The translations under genes and the position numbers were made by a program. Shown one piece after another: positions 7,657 through 26,379 of a DNA stretch of 64,000 nt. The notes under the pieces are model-generated. The model worked only from the letters and a program-made list of their open reading frames with translations, had not been told where the DNA came from and made no database searches. Source of the DNA: an uncultured Pseudomonadales bacterium (lineage in GTDB: Bacteria > Pseudomonadota > Gammaproteobacteria > Pseudomonadales > Azotimanducaceae); the NCBI GenBank assembly GCA_958296025.1, contig OY282430.1:1302001-1366000 (forward strand), written 5' to 3'. Numbering within the stretch: position 1 is the stretch's first letter; each line of letters starts with the position of its first letter.

Positions 7657-8577
7657 ATGCAAGCAAAACATCTCGAAACCCCAGAGGAACTGACCAAGGT
7701 TTTGGGTCGGGAGCTTTCCTCCCAAGCGGTGGATCCGAACGGCTGGACGGACCTGCATCACACGGCCCTGTTCAACCTTGTGGAACCCGCGAGGGCGCTG
7801 CTGACCGAAGGGGCGGACGTCAATGCCGCCCTGAAGACGGACGGCAAGCAACTCACGGCGGATGCCGTGCATTTGCTCTATCGCCTGGGCCTCATCTTCA
7901 AGACTTGGGAGCGGGAGGGCGACACGCCGTTGCACATGGCGGCCTGCTCCGATGCTGCGGCCGCCGCCAAACTGCTGCTCGACAACGGCGCGGATCTTTT
8001 CGCTGGGCTAGGCGGGGGCGGTACGCCCCTGAACGTGGCGGCGCGGTTTGAGGCGGTGGATACCGCCAGCGAATTGCTCGCCCGCGGCGCGGACAGTGGT
8101 GCCCGGGACGCCCAAGGTTGGACGCCCCTGCACAGCGCCGCCGGCGGCGGCGCATTGAAGACAGTGCGCCTGTTGCTGGACGCCGGCGCGGATGTCAATG
8201 CCGCTGCCAAGCAAGGCCTGACGCCCCTGCATCTGTCGGTTTCCCAACGCGCCCCCCAGGCCTTTGACGACCCGACCATAACCAGGCTGCTGCTCGATTG
8301 GGGCGCCGAGGTGAACGCCTTGTTGGACGGCCTGAACATAACGGCCTTGGATCTGGTCGCGGCCCTTGGCCGCCCTGTCATGGCGAACCTGCTGCGCCGC
8401 CGCGGCGGCGATCTGACCGCTGAGGAGAAAACCGAGGTCGTGGGCATGATCGACGTCAACTTGGGAAGCGGCGGCCTGTTGATGCCGATCATGAAGCGCT
8501 CCATTAGGTGCCGTCCCCCGCGCAACCGCGGCGGAACTAGGAACGGAGGCCGAACCCGCCGTTCAAGGCGCAGGTGA
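7657..8577 (+). CDS. Ankyrin-repeat protein
   Basis: 306 residues. At least four ankyrin units can be read, with the recurring TPLH and ALLxxGADVNA patterns (for example GDTPLHMAACSDAAAAAKLL, GWTPLHSAAGGG and GLTPLHLSVSQR). There is no signal peptide or membrane segment, so it is probably a cytoplasmic binding protein. ATG 7657 sits 4 bases after GGGAGG. The C terminus is short and basic (CRPPRNRGG and onward), unlike an ankyrin capping helix, and may be a read-on after a lost end. It is unrelated in function to either catabolic block around it. The partner is unknown. Confidence 0.8.
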   Translation: MQAKHLETPEELTKVLGRELSSQAVDPNGWTDLHHTALFNLVEPARALLTEGADVNAALKTDGKQLTADAVHLLYRLGLIFKTWEREGDTPLHMAACSDAAAAAKLLLDNGADLFAGLGGGGTPLNVAARFEAVDTASELLARGADSGARDAQGWTPLHSAAGGGALKTVRLLLDAGADVNAAAKQGLTPLHLSVSQRAPQAFDDPTITRLLLDWGAEVNALLDGLNITALDLVAALGRPVMANLLRRRGGDLTAEEKTEVVGMIDVNLGSGGLLMPIMKRSIRCRPPRNRGGTRNGGRTRRSRRR

Positions 8578-8643
8578 CGAAGGCCGCGGCGGTGCTAGAT
8601 GCGCCGTTGCCCCGCCGCCAGCCAAGAGCCGCCCTCCTCTGCA

Positions 8644-8802
8644 CGGCGAAATCTTCTCGAACGGCTGCCAATTCCGCACCAACAGGGGGCCGCGAGGGCC
8701 TGCGGTCAGGCTGTTCCGATGATCGCCGACCGGGATGCCGGTGGCGGTGCTGAGTGTGCCCCCGTCTTTCGTGTTCATCGCATGGTTCTTGTCTTCCGCG
8801 AA
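8644..8802 (-). pseudogene. 5' remnant of a haem catalase gene
   Basis: The minus strand encodes about 50 residues matching the beginning of monofunctional catalases: MNTKDGGTLSTATG, PVGDHRNSLTAGPRGPLL and WQPFEKISP. In an intact catalase this is followed by the FxRERIPERVVHAKG block. Here the match stops at about 8644 and the frame runs into unrelated sequence beside the ankyrin gene end. More than 400 codons are missing, so this is a relic of a deleted or displaced gene. Confidence 0.8.
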
Positions 8803-9037
8803 CCTTGCCTCGGCTGCGATCCTTGGGGGAGGGCGGGCAGTGCAAGCAAAAGTCGATTGAACGCCGGTGCATCGCTCGGTACAGTGCTGGCCAAACAGCA
8901 GGGCGTGGACATGCCGGAAAACAAGTTCATCGCCGTTGTCGGCACCGGGGCGGCAGCGACCCAGCCCGCGCAACCTCCGCAGGCGCCGTTTTTCAAGGCG
9001 GGATGCATTCAAGCGTCCGCTTGACCGGAAAACGGCC
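8803..9037. other. Rest of the gap between the ankyrin gene and manD
   Basis: The 460-base gap (8578-9037) contains the catalase remnant at its left. In the remaining 235 bases an open frame on the plus strand ends in [17 protein letters not shown] and onward, but I recognise no family and there is no ribosome site. I see no convincing promoter or terminator. Confidence 0.4.
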
Positions 9038-10246
9038 ATGAAAATCACCGCTGCCCGTGTCATCGTCACCTGCCCTGGCCGCAATTTCGTGACGCTGCGA
9101 ATCGAGACCGACCAAGGCTTGCATGGCATCGGCGACGCCACCTTGAACGGCCGCGAGAAGGCCGTGGTCGCCTACTTGGAGGATCATGTCATCCCCTGCC
9201 TCATCGGTCGGGACGCTTCGCGCATCGAGGACACTTGGCAATTCCTGTACCGTGGCGCCTATTGGCGGCGGGGGCCGGTGACCATGGCGGCCATCGCCGC
9301 GGTGGATGTGGCGCTTTGGGACATCAAGGGCAAGGCCGCCGGCATGCCGCTGTATCAGCTACTAGGCGGTGCTTCGCGCAACGGCGTTTTGGTCTATGGG
9401 CACGCCAGCGGGGCGGGCGTCGAGGAGGCGGTGAATGCCGTGGGCCGCTATCTCGAGCTCGGCTACAAGGCCGTTCGCGTGCAGTCGGGCATCCCCGGGG
9501 TGCGGGGTGCCTACGGCGTGGACCGGGGGGAACTGCACTACGAGCCGGCTGACGCCGCCCAGCCGACGGAGACCCTCTGGTCCACTCCGGCCTATCTGGA
9601 TTTCGCACCCAAGCTGTTCCAACGGGTGCGGGACGCGCATGGCTTCGATTGCGAGCTGCTGCACGATGTTCACCATCGCCTGACGCCCATCGAGGCCGGG
9701 CGCTTGGGCAAGTCCTTGGAGCCGTTCCGCCTGTTCTGGCTGGAGGACGCCACTCCTGGCGAAAATCAGGAGGCGTTTCGCCTGATTCGTCAGCACACGG
9801 TCACGCCGCTGGCGGTGGGGGAGGTGTTCAACAGCGTCCACGATTGTCGGGAGCTGATTCAGAACCAGCTCATCGACTACATCCGCTGTTCGGCCGTCCA
9901 TGCCGGGGGCATCACCCAGCTGCGCCAGATCGCCGGGCTGGCGGCTCTATATCAGGTGCGCATGGGCTGCCACGGGGCGACGGACTTATCGCCGGCCTGC
10001 CTAGGCGCCGCGTTGCACTTCGACCTTTGGGTACACAACTTCGGCATCCAGGAGTACATGCGCCACACGGAGGCCACAGACGAAGTTTTCCCCCATGCCT
10101 ACGCCTTTCAGGACGGCTATCTGCATCCCGGCGAAGCGCCCGGCATTGGAGTCGATTTCGACGAGGGGCTGGCTGCCAAGTTTCCCTATCAGCCCAAACA
10201 GCTGCCCATCGCCAGGTTGGCGGACGGAACCCTGTGGAATTGGTAG
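9038..10246 (+). CDS. manD: Enolase-superfamily sugar-acid dehydratase, ManD type (D-mannonate dehydratase)
   Basis: 402 residues, the standard ManD length. The start ([20 protein letters not shown]), [42 protein letters not shown] and the terminal DGTLWNW are all diagnostic of the ManD subgroup of the mandelate racemase clan. Metal ligands fall in the LLHDVH, LEDATP and VGEVF segments. The enzyme dehydrates D-mannonate or D-gluconate to 2-keto-3-deoxygluconate, and some members are slow and promiscuous. ATG 9038 is chosen because homologues start there; the longer open frame upstream has no family similarity. No kdgK or eda neighbours are in the window. Confidence 0.9.
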
Positions 10247-10451
10247 GCGGCGTTTACAGGGCGCGGCAGGGAATATCCATCGACTAGGGCGACGATCCGC
10301 TGAGCGCTTTGATGCTGGCTGAATGGCCGGCGGGCTGCATTCAGCTACGGGGCGAGCAACGGAATTCATCCCTCGGCAAAGTAAATGGCGGTTGCGAACG
10401 GGCCGAAAATGCTATTTTTATCCACAATGGATTGCATGCTTGGGTAGCACC

Positions 10452-11468
10452 ATGATCATCGACTGTCATGGCCACTACACCACCGCGCCGGCCGCGCTCG
10501 GGGAGTATCGGGAGGCGCAAAAGGCGGCCTTGGCCAAGGATCCAATCGATCCCGGCGCCAAGGGTTTGGTCGATATCTCAGATCAGCAACTGCGCGACAG
10601 CTTGGAGGGCAACCAACTCAGGATGCAGGCGGAGCGCGGCACGGACCTGACCATCTTCTCTCCCCGCGCCAGCTGGATGGGGCACCACATCGGCAACGCC
10701 CACACCTCCAAACACTGGACCGAGCACTGCAACGAGCTTATCCACCGCATCACCCGGCTCTACCCGGGCAACTTCGTCGGCGTAGCGCAGTTGCCCCAGT
10801 CCCCTGGCGCCTCGCTGGTCAACAGCGTCGCCGAACTGGAGCGCTGCGTCACCCAATTTGGTTTCATCGGCTGCAACCTGAACCCAGACCCCACCGGCGG
10901 CTACTGGACTGGCCCGCCCTTGGGGGACCGCTATTGGTATCCCTTCTATGAGAAGATGTGCGAACTGGACGTGCCGGCCATGATCCACGTCAGCGCCGCC
11001 TGCAACCCGGCTTTCCACACCACCGGTTCCCATTACCTGGGCGCGGACACCACCGCTTTCATGCAGATGCTCACCTCGGACCTCTTGGCGGATTTCCCCA
11101 GCATCAAGTTCATCATTCCCCACGGCGGCGGCGCTGTGCCCTACCATTGGGGCCGGTTCCGCGGGCTGGTGCAGGCCATGCCGGGCAAGCCGCCCCTAGA
11201 GGAGCTGGTGCGGCACAACGTTTACTTCGACACCTGCGTTTACCATCAGCCGGGCATCGACCTGCTGCTGGACATCATCCCCGCCGAGAACATCCTGTTC
11301 GCCTCGGAACTGCTGGGCGCCGTGCGCGGCATCGACCCCCGCAGCGGTCACCACTATGACGACACCAAGCGCTACATCGACGCTTCGCCCAATGCCACGC
11401 AGGCGGAGAAGGCCATGATCCTCTCAGGCAACGCCAAGCGGGTGTATCCCCGGTTGCGGATTTCGTAG
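10452..11468 (+). CDS. ligJ: 4-oxalomesaconate hydratase (amidohydrolase family, LigJ)
   Basis: 338 residues, near the 340 of characterised LigJ. It is an amidohydrolase-2 TIM barrel: the metal-binding DCHGHY starts at residue 3, MIHVSAACNP lies mid-chain, and IIPHGGGAVPYHWGRF and FASELLG supply later ligands. It hydrates 4-oxalomesaconate to 4-carboxy-4-hydroxy-2-oxoadipate in the protocatechuate 4,5-cleavage and gallate pathways. First of four consecutive lower-pathway genes. ATG 10452 has only a weak ribosome site. The 205 bases upstream hold no gene. Confidence 0.88.
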   Translation: MIIDCHGHYTTAPAALGEYREAQKAALAKDPIDPGAKGLVDISDQQLRDSLEGNQLRMQAERGTDLTIFSPRASWMGHHIGNAHTSKHWTEHCNELIHRITRLYPGNFVGVAQLPQSPGASLVNSVAELERCVTQFGFIGCNLNPDPTGGYWTGPPLGDRYWYPFYEKMCELDVPAMIHVSAACNPAFHTTGSHYLGADTTAFMQMLTSDLLADFPSIKFIIPHGGGAVPYHWGRFRGLVQAMPGKPPLEELVRHNVYFDTCVYHQPGIDLLLDIIPAENILFASELLGAVRGIDPRSGHHYDDTKRYIDASPNATQAEKAMILSGNAKRVYPRLRIS

Positions 11469-11645
11469 CAAGGGGGCTAGGGTGACGATGAGTTGGATGG
11501 TCGGTCTTACGCGGCCGGCCCACCCGAATTCGGCGCATTCTAGAATGTGGGGAAAGCTGACAAGCGAGGGGAAGCCGGCCCCGGCAAAGTGGCGGTTGGC
11601 TGCGCCGGGTTGATGCCCCTTCCCGTCGGTCAAGGAAACGCTTCA

Positions 11646-12704
11646 ATGGCGCCGGTTAGAGTCCCTTGCTCCCTCATTCGTGGCGGCACCTCCCGAGCCG
11701 CGTTCTTCCTGCGCCGGCATCTGCCGACCGATGAAGCCGCCCGCAACCAGCTGCTGGTGCGCATCCTAGGCGGCCCGGACACCCTGCAGGTGGACGGCAT
11801 CGGCGGCGGGCATCCGCTCACCAGCAAGGTGGCGGTGATCAACCCCGCCGTCGATGACGCCGCCGATGTCGATTACCTGTTCCTGCAGCTGGACCCGCGC
11901 AACCTGACCATCAGCAGTGTGCAGAACTGCGGCAACATCCTGGCCGGGGTGGGGGTTTACGCCATCCATCAGGGAATGGTGCGCATCGCCGGTGATGAGA
12001 CGGTGGTAAGGGTGCGCATGTTGAACTCCGGTGGGCTGTGCCATCTGCTGATGCAAACCCCGAACGGGGCGCTGCAAACGAAGGGGGACACGGCCATCGG
12101 CGGTGTGCCCGGCACCGCCGCGCCGGTGGTCTGCAACTACCAGAACATCGCCGGCTCCGCCTGCGGCGCCCTGCTGCCCACTGGCAACCCCTTGGATTGG
12201 GTGGAAGGCGTTGAAGCCACTTGCGTCGATAACGGAATGCCGGTGGTGGTGCTGCGGGCCGCGGATTTCGGTTTGACGGGGCTGGAGAACCCGGCGGAAT
12301 TGGAGGCGGACAAAACGCTGCGGAGCAAGCTGGAAACCCTGCGCTTGAGCCTGGGCCCGAAGATGAACTTAGGCGACGTCAGCGCCAAATCCGTTCCTAA
12401 GCTGTGCTTGGTCTCGCCGCCGCAGCGCGGTGGCTTGGTGATGACCCGCACCTTCATTCCCCATGTCTGCCATAACGCCATCGGCGTGCTCGCCGCGGTC
12501 AGCGTCGCCACGGCCTGTCTGCTGCCCTGCACCGTGGCGGCGGGCATCGGACCCGTACCAGCCGGAGACCCCAAGACCGTGGCGGTGGAGCATCCCAGCG
12601 GTGCCTTCGGCGTACGCCTGGAGATGGACGAAGACAACCAAGTGCGGGCGGCCGGCGTGGTGCGCACGGCCCGCCTGCTGTTTGAAGGAGAAGCGATCGC
12701 GTGA
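11646..12704 (+). CDS. ligU: 4-oxalomesaconate tautomerase (PrpF family, LigU/GalD)
   Basis: 352 residues of the PrpF/diaminopimelate-epimerase-like fold. [13 protein letters not shown] at the start, [12 protein letters not shown] and [12 protein letters not shown] are typical. It isomerises the double bond or keto-enol form of 4-oxalomesaconate to feed LigJ. ATG 11646 fits homologues; the frame is open from 11547, but the extra residues match nothing. The last codon overlaps the next start (GTGA), so it is coupled to ligK. PrpF-type aconitate isomerases are the main alternative, but the ligJ, ligK and ligC neighbours favour this role. Confidence 0.85.
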
Positions 12705-18785: not shown

Positions 18786-19454
18786 TCACAGGCCGTGCGG
18801 CGGCGCTATCTCCTCAACCCGCCAGGCAGCCTTTTCCCGTAGGTGTCGATAGCTGAGACGAACTCTGAAATCTTCGCCGAGCGTTGGCGCGTTCCGCCCC
18901 GCAAGCCAAATCGTGTCTTGGGCGGTCGGGTTATAGCGCTCCTGCAGGCGGCCATTGGGAATGCAAGCCACGACTACGCGGTCGAGCCGCTGAGAGCCAT
19001 CTATTTCTTCGTAAACGTACTTGGCGATGACCGTGACCACTTGGAAAGTGCGGGGGCCGCGGCGAATTTCCTGCTCCAGCCCGCCGGGTTCGGCCACCTC
19101 AACCCCGCTCCTGCGCATTTTGACGGTCATTGATGTTTGGGACATCTGAATGGTTGCCGTGCGGTTGCCGTTGGGCTTCTCCGCCTTCGCGTCAAGCATC
19201 AAGGCAACTGGCTGCGCTTCCGGCAAGAAAACGTAGATGGCCTTCTTGACGTCCACCTTCCCGTAGAGACGGTCACGCAGGCCCGGCAAGCCCATAGCCT
19301 CAATGGCCTCCCGCGTCACGTCTTCGGCGATGTCTTGGGGGAGGTCCGTTTCTTCACGGAATATGGTGGCTGCTTGGGGCAAGTAATCCTTGATGGCCTG
19401 CACCACCATCGCCATGGCTGTTCTCTCAAGGCGCTCAAGCGCATCAAGCTCCAT
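18786..19454 (-). CDS. SfiI-family type II restriction endonuclease
   Basis: 222 residues. Similarity to SfiI (269 residues) is recognisable over the length: ELDALERLERTAMAMVVQA at the start, GKVDVKK, LMLDAKAE, QMSQTSM, PNGRLQERYNPTAQDT and the end segment AAWRVEEI. The catalytic PD-(D/E)xK residues can be placed as Asp68, Asp88 and Lys90, with nearly the same spacing as SfiI Asp79, Asp100 and Lys102. SfiI cuts GGCCNNNNNGGCC as a tetramer. The gene starts 11 bases inside the end of the methyltransferase gene. The specificity is inferred from family similarity only. Confidence 0.82.
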   Translation of the reverse strand: MELDALERLERTAMAMVVQAIKDYLPQAATIFREETDLPQDIAEDVTREAIEAMGLPGLRDRLYGKVDVKKAIYVFLPEAQPVALMLDAKAEKPNGNRTATIQMSQTSMTVKMRRSGVEVAEPGGLEQEIRRGPRTFQVVTVIAKYVYEEIDGSQRLDRVVVACIPNGRLQERYNPTAQDTIWLAGRNAPTLGEDFRVRLSYRHLREKAAWRVEEIAPPHGL

Positions 19455-20499
19455 CGGTGCGCCTTCTTGCCATTCGGGTGTGGCGGGCGTCTTTATCTAT
19501 GCCCAGCCATTGGCGGCCGAGTTTCTTGGCGACGGCGGTGGTGGTGCCGGTGCCGACGAAGGGGTCGAGCACCACGCCGCCCGGTGGGGAGAATAGGCGG
19601 ATCACTCGGGCGGCCAGTTCTTCGGGGAATTCGGCTTCGTGGCGGTCGTTGCGGCGGACCGAGCGGATGCTCCAGACGCCGCGGGAACCCCAGCTTGCCC
19701 ATTCGTCGGCGGTTAGGCGATTCCGGTCATAGTCGGTGATGCCGGGACGCCAGAAGACGTAGATGTGCTCGAACTCATCGACGGCGCGGTAGGAGTTGGA
19801 GTGCCAACGGCTGTTGGCCCAACAGGGGTCCTTGTGCCAGATGCGCTGATCATAGAGGTGGAAGCCCGCTTCCTCCGCCCACTCCGCCACCATGCATCCG
19901 GTCAGCACAACTTTGGTGGAGGCGGCCTGCTTGCCGCCGCGCACGTTGTTGTCCTCCAAGCGGCGCTGAATGGTCTGCTCGCTGCAGCCCAGCATTTCGG
20001 CGAGTTCCTGCCTCTTGGCGTTGGGGTGCTCCTTCTTGACTGCAAGTATCTGCTCCCTAGTGACGGGCACCTTCTTGCGGCGCATGTTGTTGGCTTGGAA
20101 GCGTGGCATGGACGGGTCCGGGAAGCAGAGGATGTCCCCAATGTTGACGGCCAGGAACCCGCCCGGCTTGATGATGCGGGTGTGGCAGTGGATGACCTCC
20201 CGCAGCAAGCTGCACCAGCCGTCAAAGGACAGGTGGCGCTCATAGGACTTGCCCACATAGTAGGGCGGCGACCAAAAACTCAGGTCAATGCAGGCCTCTG
20301 GCAGCTTCACCAGGTGACGCCGGGCATCGCCGGTGAGGATACGGCCGAAAGCAGTTTCCTCGCCCTTCCCCCCCGACGGCGTTGTGGTGGGGGCCGCTTT
20401 GCCTCTCTCCCCGTTCAGGCCAGCCGCTTGGACAACATCCAGCCCAAGCTGCACGTCACCCGCCAAGCCCTCTTGAACGCCTTTGCGCATGGTCCGCAT
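19444..20499 (-). CDS. Beta-class DNA methyltransferase of the SfiI-like system, with internal HTH
   Basis: 351 residues. The catalytic motif IV SPPY is at 77-80 and motif I DPFVGTGTT at 312-320, the order of the beta class; SPPY usually indicates N4-cytosine methylation. Between them, at about 146-186, lies a helix-turn-helix-like segment (QELAEMLGCSEQTIQRRLED). It may be part of target recognition or allow self-regulation. The first 45 residues are poorly conserved, so a later start is possible. It overlaps the endonuclease gene by 11 bases. It protects the host against the adjacent nuclease. Confidence 0.88.
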   Translation of the reverse strand: MRTMRKGVQEGLAGDVQLGLDVVQAAGLNGERGKAAPTTTPSGGKGEETAFGRILTGDARRHLVKLPEACIDLSFWSPPYYVGKSYERHLSFDGWCSLLREVIHCHTRIIKPGGFLAVNIGDILCFPDPSMPRFQANNMRRKKVPVTREQILAVKKEHPNAKRQELAEMLGCSEQTIQRRLEDNNVRGGKQAASTKVVLTGCMVAEWAEEAGFHLYDQRIWHKDPCWANSRWHSNSYRAVDEFEHIYVFWRPGITDYDRNRLTADEWASWGSRGVWSIRSVRRNDRHEAEFPEELAARVIRLFSPPGGVVLDPFVGTGTTTAVAKKLGRQWLGIDKDARHTRMARRRTDGA

Positions 20500-20561
20500 T
20501 GCCTAACCCCTAGATGCGCTAGCCCATTAAACGCGGCTTATCCGCAGCGGCAGCAAAGATA

Positions 20562-20577
20562 CTGTAAGGAAATACAG
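20562..20577. promoter_or_regulatory. Inverted repeat upstream of the methyltransferase gene
   Basis: CTGTA-AGGAAA-TACAG, a perfect 5-base palindrome with a 6-base centre, 63-78 bases before the methyltransferase start. It sits in an AT-richer patch that could hold the promoter (minus strand). A candidate operator for control of the restriction-modification genes; no separate controller gene is seen. Confidence 0.35.
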
Positions 20578-20579
20578 AT

Positions 20580-20986
20580 TTCAATCCTTTTTCCTCGTCG
20601 TCACTAGTGGAGCCTAGAGTGGCGGCGTTGGGCTTCATGGCTTGCGCGGTCGGCATGATGGCTGTGGCTGCCGGATTGTAGCTCAGTATGGCGCAAGATG
20701 GCGCAAGCTGGGCGCGACAGGCCAGCCCTTCACCCTCGGACAAATCCTGGCGTTGACGGCCTCGGTGGTGCCCCGCCGCAGCTCCGCCCGGCCCGTAGCC
20801 CATTTTGGGCGAAAGTTGGCCTGCCCCCAACAGGCGGCCTGATTGCCAATTCACCGAGCAAGAAGGCGCACACGCAAGTCGATATGTCGCAGTACTTTGC
20901 CGAAATGGAGGTTCCCGCCGGCAATAGGCTGGCGATCAGCGGATTGGCGAAGTGCAATTTTCTCCGGAGGCACATCAGGGCATTGG
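20580..20986. other. Gap between the NACHT-like gene and the methyltransferase gene
   Basis: About 490 bases without a supported gene. It contains the short direct repeat ATGGCGCAAG twice in tandem (about 20688-20707). Open frames here lack ribosome sites and match nothing I know. A gene relic is possible. Confidence 0.4.
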
Positions 20987-23900
20987 TTAAACTGCGGGCT
21001 TGGATACGTCTATCACTACCACCGATATCTTTCGGCGCTCGGCATTCGACAGGGTGCCGTATAGGCTCTTCTCGAGCTCCTTGGCGGTGTTGGGGCGCCT
21101 TCCTTCAGAGGGTGTGGCCTTGGTCCACTCTAGGCCGAACCAGAACACCACGTAGATGCCGTGGCCGTTGGCACCGGGATCCCTTGCGTATCTGGCGATT
21201 AGTTGGCTGTGAATTGCAGTCCATAAGTTCCCGTGGGAGTTTTTCTTGACTTCCACCGGCACATTTAGCCGTTCGTACCAGACTTGGATGTCCGCCCTGC
21301 CGTCATTGGCGTACTGCCCTTCGGGTTGGGCATTAACGCCCAGTGGAAGCCTTTCCTGCAAATCGGACAATAGCGCATCTCTGCACAGTTCCTCGTGCTT
21401 GGGTTCTTGTGGGTTTTTTGCCGAATCGGTATTCCAGTATTGACGCCAATCGGAAGTCTCGCCGTGGCGGACCTGTTTAGCCAATTCAGCCAGATGGTCC
21501 GTCACCAGCGCCGCTAAGTCAGCGGAGTTCGCTGGGCGATTGTTGTCGAGCGTTCGCAGAACCCGCGTAGGGCTTGCGTGGGTAAAACAGGCTTCCCGAC
21601 GAACTTTGCACTGCTGTTGCCTGGCGTGACGGATGCGGGGATGCCAAGGATGAAGCGCCGGGCGCTCCGCTAGCCGCTCTAGTGTTTCTGTCGCGGGTGC
21701 AGTTGGTTCAGCAGCTATCTGCCCAATCAGGTTATGTACGAGCGGTCTTCCGGCATCTTCTGCTTCTGATATAAATCTCGGTTTTCCGTTGGCCGAGTCC
21801 GAACCATAGGGTCTATATAAGCCGCCGATAGTCTGAACTAGAAGTTCTTTAGCCGGCAGATCCAGATTTGCAATCCATGGGTTGAGTTCATTGGTGAGAA
21901 ACGCCGCCAAGTGCGCGACTTGCTGCTGCCCGCCCCTTCCAGTCAGTGCCTTGGCTAGTGGCTCAAGGGTAGATTGAGGCTGCCTGAGAATCCTAGCCGC
22001 TAGCCAGTACACCCTTTGCGCGGTGTTGAGGCTTTTGAGTGCGATCTTTTGTTCCACTACTGCAAGAAACGCTTTTTTTTCATAATGCTTTAGAGCAGCG
22101 ACAAGGATCTGTTTCAGCATCTTCAACTGCCGCACTGTGCAACGATTGGGAAATGCCTTCATTAGCTGCGGAGTGGCAATGCAAGCCACTTCCGAATAGC
22201 CTGGGTCGTGCGCTAACTGATATAGGTCCATACAGTGTTGGCCGCCTTTGCGTATGGTGGCTCGAAAGACCTGAACCATAGATTCAGCAACCACATCCGG
22301 TTGGTAGGCCAGAATTAGCCCGTGCTCTAGCCACTTGTCGTTAGGGGGTAATATCTCACTGAAGTGCAGTGCAAGAGCCCGGCGCATGCCATCTTCATCC
22401 AAGGGAGGTTGGCCAGCACTGAGCTCGCCGGCAAGCTCCTGCAAGCCCGCGGCAAAGGGCAGGGCAAGGTCATGTTGTTGATTCTGGGCTGAGAGGTGAA
22501 GAATCTCCGGCGCTTGAGGGAGGTCGCCGCGTTTTGTCGATTCTCGGAAAGCATTGAGGACTAAATCGACCAACCGTTCATCGCCGCCGAGCAAGCTGAG
22601 TAGCCGCTCTCGTCCGGTGTTTCCGTCGATGTCCAGGAAAAACCCAAAGTACGCCCCCGCCAATTGGTGCAATAACTTTGGCGGGGCCGAATTTCTCCGA
22701 AAGTCGGGTTCAAGAGACTTGATTGCATTCCGCCAGTTTTCACGATTTCTTTGTCGTTCGTCCGCATCTTTTTGTTCTTTTTCCGAATGCGCTTTTTGCC
22801 GATGTTCTTGTCTATCAATAAATCGTCGTTGGTGGTTCCCTATTGCTTTGTAATGATTTAGGAGGACAGGTCGCCGCGCTATGTGCTTTTCAAGACCTTC
22901 TTGAGAAAGGCCCTCGCAATGGTTTTGACAATCCAAGCAGTAAACTGCTTCTTCCAGAAATTTGCAGGCGAGGTCTTGGTCTTCGGCATTAAGAGCTTGG
23001 TCAAGGCACCAAGAGCCGAAGTCTGGCGGTGCAGGAGCATGAAATAGATAGTCTTCCGGTGTCCACGGGAACATAGGACTTTCAGTGCCCATTTTGAAAA
23101 TGGCTTTATACTGATTGGGATGGCTGCCAAACCAACTCCTGACTTCCTGCACCTCCTTGGCACTACTCTGATTTTCACCAATATTGAGCGATACGCCAAG
23201 CCAACCAAATAGGTTTTGCTCATCTAGTACATCGGTGCCGTCCAAATTTGTCAGATATGTTGCAAGCAATAATGTTGGCAAATTTCTCATCTTGCTTGGC
23301 AGTGAGGTGACTCTACTCGTCCAAGATTGGTCACTGCAGAAGCTGACGAAGGAGTCAAGCGCCTCGGCGATGAGTTTCTGGCCCACCGTCCTTTTCGTGA
23401 AGGTGTCGATCCAGAAAAATCTATACCAGCTCAGAAAATTCCCCCTTTTTGGTACTCGAAAGTATCGGCCTATATTAGACGGGGGCAGGTTATTCGGGTA
23501 CAGGTGTAGGAGCAAATTCCCAAGCAGTTGATCGTTAGGATCGGATACGGCCCCGGAATGCACCGCTTCGAGTAGGTCTTGCAGTTCGTGCTTGGCTTGA
23601 TTGTGTCCCCCAACTTGCTTGGTGTAGGCCTCGAGCGCGAGCTCTCTAACCCACAACGATCTCGCTTGGTCTCTAACCACACTCATCAAAATCGGCCTGA
23701 GGCTAGGAATGGCATTGCCGTGTTGCAGGGCGGTCAGCACCGCAATCGCAACAGATTGCCATGCGTCGTTCGTGGGTTCTTTGGTCAAAAGCTCCGCAAA
23801 CGACTCCCTCATGTCAGGAGTGGCCAAGTCTCCCCAGCGTGTTTCCAGTTTTTGGTTGTTGGCGATGCTCCAAGGGTCGCGTTCGGCTTCCCGCTCAAGG

Positions 23901-25102
23901 CAATTCAAGATTAGGCGTTTCTCATATGCTGAGAATTGCTTGATGTCGCCGTACAGGACAATGCCTTCTGGGTCACGCTCGATAAGTTCGCGGCGTCCCT
24001 TCTTGCTGTGGGCGGCGAGCCAAGCGGACAAACCGCGCAGTTCGGACACTACGCCGTCGTCCTCACCCGTGATCAGGGCCAAAATCCTGGACACCGGCAA
24101 GCCGTTGTCGATCAAGCCTGCCAGATACTTACCGGCTAGAAACTCGGCGATGTGGCGGTGTATTGGCGCAGCAAGGCCTTTTTCCACGTTGAACAGCTTG
24201 GTGTGGATGGTTCGGTTTAGAATTTTTTGGCTTGGGTTGGGAATTTCTGACAACGAAAGGGAATTCGCATCGGCTTGGTCAGCTATCGCACTGCATCCGG
24301 TGAGGCCGCTAAGCAGGATCAGGGCGCAAATGCAGCCCGCCGCACCGAGTAGATCAGCATCGCTGTGCTGTAATGGTGTAGCCCGCTGATGTTCACAATT
24401 GTGTTCCGACAGCAGCCTTCGGCATGCCAACTTGAAGGTCTGTTGGCGCGTTTCCGGCCAGCTTCCGCCGGCAACTTCTGTCGCAAGCATCTCGAGCGTT
24501 TGCGGATTCTCAAGTAGCTGGCTGATGCCTCTGTGTTGGGCTGTGACAATGAAGTTTTCAACGTCTTTTATGCCTTGGAGACTTTTGAGAATCTCCCGGA
24601 CGCCTTCTTCGGGCAAGGGATCAAGGCGCAGGACAAGGACTTCGCCATTGCTTGACACCAATTTTAGATGCGCCTGGTCGGTTGCGCCGAACCAATCCGC
24701 TTCGCGGCAGGAGAGGCGGAAACGAGGCCGCCCCAGCCTATCCAGTTTTGCGCGAATCCGATCGAAGGGTGTTCGTTGGTCTGAGGCACCCGCCCGCATT
24801 TCATCTAACCCGTCGATGAACAGCGTGGTTCCCCGCCATCCAGGCCGGTCGTCAAAGGTAACGAAATCCCGCGCCGTGACGTAGCAGCCTGCTTGCGCCT
24901 CCGCTTGGCGCTCAAACGCTTCGGTTTGGGCCTCCGCCTCGCGCCTGAACATTTCGGTTTTGCCGGCGCCGGGCGCACCAAGCAGGACAATCGCCGGACT
25001 ATCCCCAAACTCCTTCAGGGGTTTTGGCTGCGGGCGCTCGGCAGGATTGTCCCGGCGGTCTTGGGCAACCTCGGTGCAAGTGCGGTGAACGTAAACGTTC
25101 AT
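20987..25102 (-). CDS. Large NACHT-like STAND NTPase with C-terminal PD-(D/E)xK nuclease-like domain
   Basis: 1371 residues. Walker A GAPGAGKT is at 42-49 and Walker B TLFIDGLDE at 93-101 (the hydrophobic-D-GLDE form typical of NACHT). Sensor segment SCREADW is at 131-137. Residues from about 350 to 1200 are a long helical, repeat-like region with no motif I can name. The C terminus has the nuclease-like pattern RADIQVWYER...VPVEVKK (Asp1271, Glu1284, Lys1286), then SQLIARY and GIYVVFWF. The ATG overlaps the stop of the ATPase gene upstream (ATGA). Base composition is much richer in A+T than the neighbours. The architecture suggests an anti-phage NLR-like protein whose effector is at the C terminus, the reverse of Avs proteins. 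Function is inferred; nothing catalytic is proven. Confidence 0.75.
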   Translation of the reverse strand: MNVYVHRTCTEVAQDRRDNPAERPQPKPLKEFGDSPAIVLLGAPGAGKTEMFRREAEAQTEAFERQAEAQAGCYVTARDFVTFDDRPGWRGTTLFIDGLDEMRAGASDQRTPFDRIRAKLDRLGRPRFRLSCREADWFGATDQAHLKLVSSNGEVLVLRLDPLPEEGVREILKSLQGIKDVENFIVTAQHRGISQLLENPQTLEMLATEVAGGSWPETRQQTFKLACRRLLSEHNCEHQRATPLQHSDADLLGAAGCICALILLSGLTGCSAIADQADANSLSLSEIPNPSQKILNRTIHTKLFNVEKGLAAPIHRHIAEFLAGKYLAGLIDNGLPVSRILALITGEDDGVVSELRGLSAWLAAHSKKGRRELIERDPEGIVLYGDIKQFSAYEKRLILNCLEREAERDPWSIANNQKLETRWGDLATPDMRESFAELLTKEPTNDAWQSVAIAVLTALQHGNAIPSLRPILMSVVRDQARSLWVRELALEAYTKQVGGHNQAKHELQDLLEAVHSGAVSDPNDQLLGNLLLHLYPNNLPPSNIGRYFRVPKRGNFLSWYRFFWIDTFTKRTVGQKLIAEALDSFVSFCSDQSWTSRVTSLPSKMRNLPTLLLATYLTNLDGTDVLDEQNLFGWLGVSLNIGENQSSAKEVQEVRSWFGSHPNQYKAIFKMGTESPMFPWTPEDYLFHAPAPPDFGSWCLDQALNAEDQDLACKFLEEAVYCLDCQNHCEGLSQEGLEKHIARRPVLLNHYKAIGNHQRRFIDRQEHRQKAHSEKEQKDADERQRNRENWRNAIKSLEPDFRRNSAPPKLLHQLAGAYFGFFLDIDGNTGRERLLSLLGGDERLVDLVLNAFRESTKRGDLPQAPEILHLSAQNQQHDLALPFAAGLQELAGELSAGQPPLDEDGMRRALALHFSEILPPNDKWLEHGLILAYQPDVVAESMVQVFRATIRKGGQHCMDLYQLAHDPGYSEVACIATPQLMKAFPNRCTVRQLKMLKQILVAALKHYEKKAFLAVVEQKIALKSLNTAQRVYWLAARILRQPQSTLEPLAKALTGRGGQQQVAHLAAFLTNELNPWIANLDLPAKELLVQTIGGLYRPYGSDSANGKPRFISEAEDAGRPLVHNLIGQIAAEPTAPATETLERLAERPALHPWHPRIRHARQQQCKVRREACFTHASPTRVLRTLDNNRPANSADLAALVTDHLAELAKQVRHGETSDWRQYWNTDSAKNPQEPKHEELCRDALLSDLQERLPLGVNAQPEGQYANDGRADIQVWYERLNVPVEVKKNSHGNLWTAIHSQLIARYARDPGANGHGIYVVFWFGLEWTKATPSEGRRPNTAKELEKSLYGTLSNAERRKISVVVIDVSKPAV

Positions 25103-26379
25103 GGCGTTTCAAACCAGTGCGAAGCAGGGTGGGAGAGCAATTCACCGAGGGCCAGCCCGTCTGGACCGACAAGAATGGATTGCATAGGTTTGAATTGGTT
25201 GGTGAATCTTTCCAGCCCTCTGGGTTGCGACCGTAACCGGCCGCTTTTCACCTCAAAAGCCGCCAGCCGCCGGCCGCTTTCCAAAACGAAATCCACTTCA
25301 TTGCCATTGTGCCGCCAGTAGTGGAGACTCATTTCCGGCGTCTTGGTGTTGAATAAATGTGCGCCCACGGCGCTCTCCACCAAGCGCCCCCAGAAAGTTC
25401 GGTCCGCCAGCGCCTCCGCGAAGCCGTACCCGGAGTAGGCCGACATTAGGGCGGTGTTGAGCACATTGAGTTTGGGGCTGGACGCCCGGCGGCGACGGCT
25501 CAGCCCTTCGTAGTTCAGCAGGCCGGCCACCAGCCCGGCTTGCTCAAGCAGGGTCAAATAGCGGGCCAAGGTGGTGGTGTTGCCGGCGTCGGCAAGCTGG
25601 CCGAGCATCTTGTTGTACGACAGGATTTCGCCGGAGAACTCCGCGCACAAGTCGAACAGCCTTTTCAGCAGCGCCGGCTTGTCCACCCGCTCCAGCGCCA
25701 GTATGTCCCGCTCGATGTTTGGCTCCACCAGCGCCGCCGTGATGTAGTCCCGCCAGCGGGTCTGCTCCGGTGCCAAGGGCGCGGCGCCCGGATAGCCGCC
25801 GAAGTAGAGGTATTGGGGGAGGTCGAAGCCGAATGCCTCCGCCATTTCGGCGTAGGACCAGTGGGTGAGGCGGATGCTCTCGAAGCGGCCGGCCAAACTC
25901 TCTTTCATGCCGCGCTGCATCAGCAGGGGGGCGGAACCCAAAAGGACCACATGCAGGGAGCGATTTTCCCATCGGTCCGCGTCCCATAGCCCCTTGACGA
26001 CCTCAGACCAGTTGGGAATTCTCTGAATCTCATCGAACACCAGAGCAAAACCCCGTTCCGACTGCGCGGCCTCCAAGCGGGCTAGCTGCCAAGCGCTCAC
26101 CAACCAGCGGCCATCTCTCTCCTCGGTATCCAAGGCGGACCACTTTTCCTTCCGGTCTGAACCAGTCCATGGTTCCGGCGCAGACGGAATTGCCTCAGGT
26201 CCAGGCTTGTCCACGGCAAGGTAGCGGTAAGGCTTTGTCCGGCCAATCTGGTTCAGCGTCTGCCCGATAAGCGTGGTTTTGCCGCATTGGCGGGGGCCGT
26301 TGATGAAGATCAACCACCGAGGGGATTCGTTCAGCCGCTTGAGAACGGCGGCTATCTGTTTGCGCTGGAAGACGGCCAT
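25099..26379 (-). CDS. AAA_14/DUF4143 ATPase with PD-(D/E)xK-like C terminus
   Basis: 426 residues. Walker A GPRQCGKTT is at 28-36 and Walker B FALVFDEIQ at 111-119. A winged-helix/DUF4143 region follows, and the C terminus has NEVDFVLES...AFEVKSG (Asp363, Glu376, Lys378), a restriction-nuclease-like fold shared by the family. Such ATPases are widespread and of unclear function. Here the stop codon overlaps the start of the NACHT-like gene, so the two are probably one translational unit. First gene of the island on the ffh side. It is GC-rich, unlike its partner. Confidence 0.85.
   Translation of the reverse strand: MAVFQRKQIAAVLKRLNESPRWLIFINGPRQCGKTTLIGQTLNQIGRTKPYRYLAVDKPGPEAIPSAPEPWTGSDRKEKWSALDTEERDGRWLVSAWQLARLEAAQSERGFALVFDEIQRIPNWSEVVKGLWDADRWENRSLHVVLLGSAPLLMQRGMKESLAGRFESIRLTHWSYAEMAEAFGFDLPQYLYFGGYPGAAPLAPEQTRWRDYITAALVEPNIERDILALERVDKPALLKRLFDLCAEFSGEILSYNKMLGQLADAGNTTTLARYLTLLEQAGLVAGLLNYEGLSRRRRASSPKLNVLNTALMSAYSGYGFAEALADRTFWGRLVESAVGAHLFNTKTPEMSLHYWRHNGNEVDFVLESGRRLAAFEVKSGRLRSQPRGLERFTNQFKPMQSILVGPDGLALGELLSHPASHWFETP

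Follow-up and report, generated by a model that had tools for sequence, protein, structure and literature searches.

Introduction

Proteins of the Avs (AVAST) and bNACHT groups combine a STAND/NACHT switch with a nuclease effector, and in Avs the nuclease lies at the N terminus. The usual bNACHT/STAND order is given, in an excerpt of PMC12169576, as an N-terminal effector and a C-terminal sensor; the same excerpt places the PD-(D/E)xK domain of bNACHT25 and bNACHT32 at the N terminus and describes their C terminus as the sensor. NCBIfam holds the family EruA (NF058535, 'NACHT domain-containing antiphage protein EruA') and a related NACHT antiphage family, HyoA (NF058534). The PADLOC candidate PDC-S01 (PDLC04791), an ATPase uniting AAA_14 and DUF4143, is listed there by itself, and we take the 'S' of its name to stand for single gene. 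A literature search of partial coverage gave, among the matches listed, no paper naming a NACHT-DUF4143 pair and none naming the antiphage EruA, the EruA found there being an E. coli regulator. For DUF4143 together with NACHT and defence the same search gave no paper at all; a related DUF4143 defence match concerns the Thermus Argonaute, and the excerpts of PMC13092281 and PMC12724215 have no bearing on the pair.

Here, we describe a locus at which these two kinds of protein are encoded side by side. It lies in a stretch of 64,000 nucleotides (the window) from an uncultured bacterium of the Azotimanducaceae (Table 1). The reading that we favour, and hold to be reasonably probable, is that the pair is a horizontally acquired two-gene anti-phage cassette in which an EruA-like NACHT-nuclease is gated or assisted by the ATPase.

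Table 1. Positions, in window coordinates, of the gene pair, its parts and the neighbouring restriction-modification genes.
Feature	Position	Strand	Remarks
AAA_14 + DUF4143 ATPase gene	25099-26379	-	426 aa; upstream gene of the pair
EruA-like NACHT NTPase gene with C-terminal nuclease-like domain	20987-25102	-	1371 aa
Pair-specific insertion region of the ATPase	26107-26208	-	34 residues between D57 and W92
NACHT part of the 1371-aa protein	23683-25102	-	residues 1-473 modelled
Putative C-terminal PD-(D/E)xK-type domain	20990-21826	-	residues 1093-1371; E1237, D1271, E1284, K1286, Q1300
N6/N4 DNA methylase gene	19444-20499	-	restriction-modification neighbour of the pair
SfiI-like type II REase gene	18786-19454	-	PF11487, 5e-47; overlaps the methylase gene

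Affiliation of the two genes

Judged by its sequence, the 1371-residue protein is EruA-like, a divergent member of the same family. It matches NF058535 over nearly its full length (893.3 bits, residues 28-1367 on profile positions 17-1318 of 1318), and the match is colinear, with the NACHT part first and the nuclease-like domain last in both, although the score stays below the curated cut-off of 1000 bits. Four of the five other paired proteins scanned score 834-997 bits and the fifth, from L127, 1032; L081, an unpaired mate from the same clade, reaches 1146 bits. What further distinguishes the window protein from EruA is the DUF4143 partner gene, which is absent from 27 of 33 homologous loci. 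The HyoA profile gives 158 bits against a cut-off of 1200. One of the 27 loci, L073, is itself HyoA (7957-12312, minus strand, 1605 bits), and at its C terminus there is a weak match (E 1.7e-9) to the nuclease-like domain of the EruA-like proteins, which hints that the nuclease-last design is common to HyoA; no ATPase relative was found around this locus. Among the nine large ORFs scanned, L055 gave the only other such weak match (E 6.2e-6).

The ATPase matches DUF4143 (1.6e-29) and AAA_14 (4.4e-22) in Pfam and PDC-S01 in PADLOC (515.8 bits). With both domains and intact Walker A, DEIQ and EVDFV...EVKS motifs it has the composition of a PDC-S01 / DUF4143 ATPase. The PDC-S01 profile also matches all four partnered and all four unpartnered relatives scanned, and what the partnered clade adds to PDC-S01 is an insertion and a NACHT neighbour.

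The first-pass annotation had suggested an undescribed system, and in this respect it needs revision: the NACHT protein falls in the EruA antiphage family, though below its cut-off, EruA-like relatives share the reversed domain order, and the ATPase type is already a PADLOC candidate. What looks new is the partnership with the ATPase, NACHT family and ATPase type both being known. Its description of the arrangement holds. The NACHT gene begins inside the stop codon of the upstream ATPase gene, the two sharing ATGA; a restriction-modification pair, of a methylase and an SfiI-like REase, lies nearby; and the two-gene unit recurs at other loci.

Recurrence and co-inheritance of the pair

Counting the window, 11 loci were found at which the ATPase gene immediately precedes an EruA-like gene, so that the co-occurrence elsewhere which the annotation had named as its test is borne out. 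The main survey took in 34 loci, of which all but L074 match the NACHT protein; in six of these 33 (L033, L069, L072, L083, L084 and L010) the ATPase gene lies immediately upstream. L105, L050, L127 and L016 were added later. At L072 and L016 (the same as L146) the NACHT gene is decayed; L050 (the same as L129) is counted once, and L010 has a frame break near the C-terminal end. All 11 belong to genomes of the window's phylum, apart from one viral-collection contig. Since L105 was found via the ATPase and the others via the NACHT protein or its family, the paired loci are no random sample. An ATPase scan of viral contigs gave no match and the phage collection one partial match; none of the E. 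coli genomes matches the DNA of the solitary homologue L075. Apparent EruA matches in the DUF4143 genes of L106, L108 and L110 proved to be an artefact of an over-extended, out-of-frame start of the L069 ORF and were not counted.

The junction reads ATGA at six of the 11 loci and TTGA at L084, L050 and L016, start codons other than ATG being assumed; at L127 the genes abut, and at L033 the next start is 6 bases on.

'Without partner', as said of the 27 main-survey loci, means that tblastn gave no match to the ATPase (E <= 1e-3) in the flanks covered, L051-L053 being fragments whose upstream side lies outside that coverage. Because these 27 loci and L081 lack the ATPase partner, it is accessory and not obligatory. 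At L072 the NACHT gene has lost at least its N-terminal half and at L016 its middle, and at both loci the ATPase gene is open throughout; given this survival beside decayed NACHT genes, the ATPase may have a separate role. The intact ATPase genes beside decayed partners, together with the upstream position and translational overlap of the ATPase, also speak for a different logic, in which the ATPase holds the NACHT-nuclease inactive, as a restraint or immunity factor would, and disturbance of the ATPase by a phage releases the nuclease, as in guard or toxin-antitoxin-like systems. We regard this as unlikely: L081, of the same clade, has a full NACHT gene and no ATPase, and the 27 loci without partner argue in the same direction.

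Phylogenies of both proteins group the paired loci. In the first EruA-like tree seven paired rows fall in a clade of eight (support 100/100) and in the second nine fall in a clade of 11 (100/100), and in each case none of 500 shuffles was as clustered. The unpaired rows in the clade of 11 are L122, whose place is unsure, and L081, which is nested among paired rows and has probably lost its partner. In the ATPase tree, which also has 13 unpartnered sequences, all eight partnered ones group in a single clade (100/99). L016 is outside the trees, as is the NACHT remnant of L072 in the case of the NACHT trees. The group of the window, L069 and L033 and the pair of L083 and L084 are recovered both in the first NACHT tree and in the ATPase tree; the position of L105 differs or is unresolved between the NACHT and ATPase trees. 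Furthermore, pairwise distances of the NACHT proteins and the ATPases correlate (r 0.78, permutation p 0.0006, n=9). The trees and the correlated distances, taken together, suggest a single recruitment of the ATPase followed by long co-inheritance.

The partnered ATPases also share an insertion. Between the aspartate after the strand that follows Walker A and the tryptophan before Walker B, the loop measures 28-34 residues in 10 of 10 partnered ATPases and 6-8 in 19 of 19 unpartnered relatives, six of which came from a later search and are an independent check of the difference. This corresponds to 20-28 inserted residues in all ten measured sequences, L016 being outside these ten, and to their absence from the 19, from which L114, L115 and L117, ending inside the ATPase gene, are excluded. 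N-terminal residues are missing from the ATPase of L010, at a contig end, and from that of L108, at the ORF start; for L184 and L186 the downstream coverage is only about 250-340 bases. Ten of 398 genomes of the phylum have a close ATPase relative; four of these are paired and have the loop, and six are without either in the sequence covered. The loop site, which we take to correspond to the strand 2 - helix 2 region of AAA+ proteins, is plausible as a contact site.

One may still ask whether the two defence genes are functionally independent and have only the operon in common. Close relatives of each gene do occur alone, and DUF4143 genes are plentiful: with 19 DUF4143 matches above the Pfam cut-off in the window genome (G000), one DUF4143 neighbour alone would be weak evidence. 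Such independence is nevertheless quite improbable in view of the single origin, the divergence in step, the pair-specific insertion and the adjacency, which is retained between NACHT proteins only 28% identical. Chance neighbourhood was set aside in view of the phylogenies, the correlation of distances and the insertion. Comparison of sequences thus supports the coupling of the two genes well; its mechanism is what we infer below.

Domain organisation of the EruA-like protein

The motifs reported in the first-pass annotation, namely Walker A, GLDE, SCREADW and a C-terminal D...ExK, are all present with their residues K48, D100/E101, R133, D1271, E1284 and K1286. Across 34 aligned EruA-like sequences, that of the window protein among them, K48, D100, E101 and R133 do not vary (34/34), E1237 and D1271 are kept in 33 and E1284, K1286 and Q1300 in 32; the C-terminal misses are L067, cut by a contig end, and L071, with a shorter ORF of 1088 aa. 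To judge from this alignment, conservation of the motifs across EruA-like sequences is not due to chance.

Neither the Pfam NACHT model nor any PADLOC 2.0.0 profile, Avs types included, matches the protein at E <= 1, and Pfam as a whole gave two weak, meaningless matches only. The modelled NACHT part (AlphaFold pLDDT 80.3, pTM 0.83) is nearest NLRC4 (4kxf, E 1.6e-10) in Foldseek, with further matches to NLRP3 (8swk, E 1.8e-8) and Avs4 (8dgf, E 4.5e-4). By its Walker A, its DGLDE Walker B and the NLR-like fold of the N-terminal 473 residues the protein is a NACHT/NLR-like STAND NTPase, in agreement with the annotation. The Walker lysine is preceded by 47 residues in the window protein and by at most 39-99 across the 34 sequences, an upper bound as starts are mostly longest-ORF starts, and most EruA-like proteins therefore have no room for an N-terminal effector domain. 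The N-terminal effector and the PADLOC match that mark an Avs protein were not found in the window protein, which differs from Avs and bNACHT proteins both in its reversed domain order and in having a second gene.

The model of the C-terminal part (pLDDT 80.1, pTM 0.63) shows an E/D/ExK/Q pattern on an alpha-beta-beta-beta-alpha-beta core. Its Foldseek matches are led by Hjc, Can2, Can1 and Cdn1, none at E <= 0.001, the best being Hjc 2wiz with a probability of 0.98 and E 0.056. We take 12 of the 13 best matches to be PD-(D/E)xK nucleases; AAA proteins are also among the first 50. A profile search of PDB sequences found no nuclease for this domain, and PDB sequence searches found no useful relative. 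A PD-(D/E)xK-type nuclease fold has moderate support from the model. The annotation had placed a nuclease-like domain at the C terminus, in reversal of the usual order, and proposed a check of its fold; the placement is upheld by the conserved residues, and the check came out nuclease-like, at a strength that the best E value keeps moderate.

That this domain is instead an inactive or nucleic-acid-sensing nuclease fold, with the PD-(D/E)xK-like domain of the ATPase as the effector, is very unlikely, since, for all that the fold evidence is indirect and the C terminus is described as the sensor in other bNACHT/STAND proteins (excerpt of PMC12169576), D1271, E1284, K1286 and Q1300 are invariant in 11 aligned rows down to 24% identity and the C-terminal residues are present in 32-33 of the 34 sequences, the majority of which have no DUF4143 gene next to them.

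A viral-collection contig (L137:5407-6555) carries a 382-codon open frame with a relative of the C-terminal nuclease-like domain, without the NACHT part.

Genomic setting

The NACHT-ATPase pair and the SfiI-like restriction-modification pair sit between two genes that we take, following the E. coli gene order, to be ypjD and ffh. Among 41 genomes of the family 37 have ypjD, and 30 of these loci were covered, 29 besides the window's own. In 26 of the 29 relatives, among them one of the same genus, the two genes are adjacent, with the start of ffh at a distance of 74-375 bases from ypjD; at the other three no ffh was found in the piece covered. G+C is 51-60% over positions 20001-26000 compared with about 63-67% in most of the rest of the window. 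The two pairs between ypjD and ffh are an acquired island. Weak helix-turn-helix matches, below Pfam cut-offs, were seen inside the methylase (window 18786-20499 region).

Surroundings differ at the five paired loci examined, the window included: 2-oxoacid dehydrogenase genes at L033, rplY and pth at L083, a transposase-like gene and a response regulator at L084, and HsdM at L127. Since these loci have no neighbour in common, the pair seems to move between genomes as one unit. A scan of a single near neighbour at 11 solitary loci showed no recurring family as another upstream partner of EruA; the neighbours were HsdS, a Schlafen AlbA protein, a TrlF/Ppl-like protein, a PD-T7-4-like protein, ilvD, SelR, antitermination Q, a TonB receptor, DUF6680 and two without family.

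Elsewhere in the window genome (G000:C1:2632738-2632953; L002, L149) lies a lone C-terminal remnant, of about 71 residues, of another EruA-like protein. It is 53% identical to the window protein and 57% to that of L033, and is perhaps the scar of a lost EruA-like copy.

Proposed function

As far as sequences can tell, the two-gene arrangement is real, conserved and portable, and is a variant of an antiphage NACHT family that already has a name. Its likeliest function would be to degrade DNA when triggered by a phage, the ATPase serving as regulator or as a second nuclease. In the cassette that we favour, the N-terminal NACHT part would be the switch, the long middle the likely sensor and the C-terminal PD-(D/E)xK-type nuclease the effector. 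A phage product would be sensed by the NACHT protein, which on binding ATP would oligomerise, and the clustered nuclease tails would then cut DNA, so that the phage is stopped or the infected cell killed. The DUF4143 ATPase, presumably recruited once from solitary ATPases of the PDC-S01 type and co-translated with the NACHT protein, would bind its partner, perhaps through the pair-specific loop, and gate or assist it; it may also add a second nuclease.

One may speculate further, with low expectation, that the pair is a paired-receptor system comparable to the sensor-helper NLR pairs of plants. An NLR-like protein with its nuclease at the far end would be licensed by a dedicated ATPase-nuclease through the loop seen only in partnered ATPases, and two ATP switches would have to agree before DNA is cut.

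The nuclease-last order is indicated as a trait of the EruA-like family and not an oddity of one gene. The pair unites in one testable system two entries known apart, the antiphage NACHT family EruA and the ATPase candidate PDC-S01, and the pair-specific loop offers a concrete handle on how a second ATPase may control an NLR-like nuclease.
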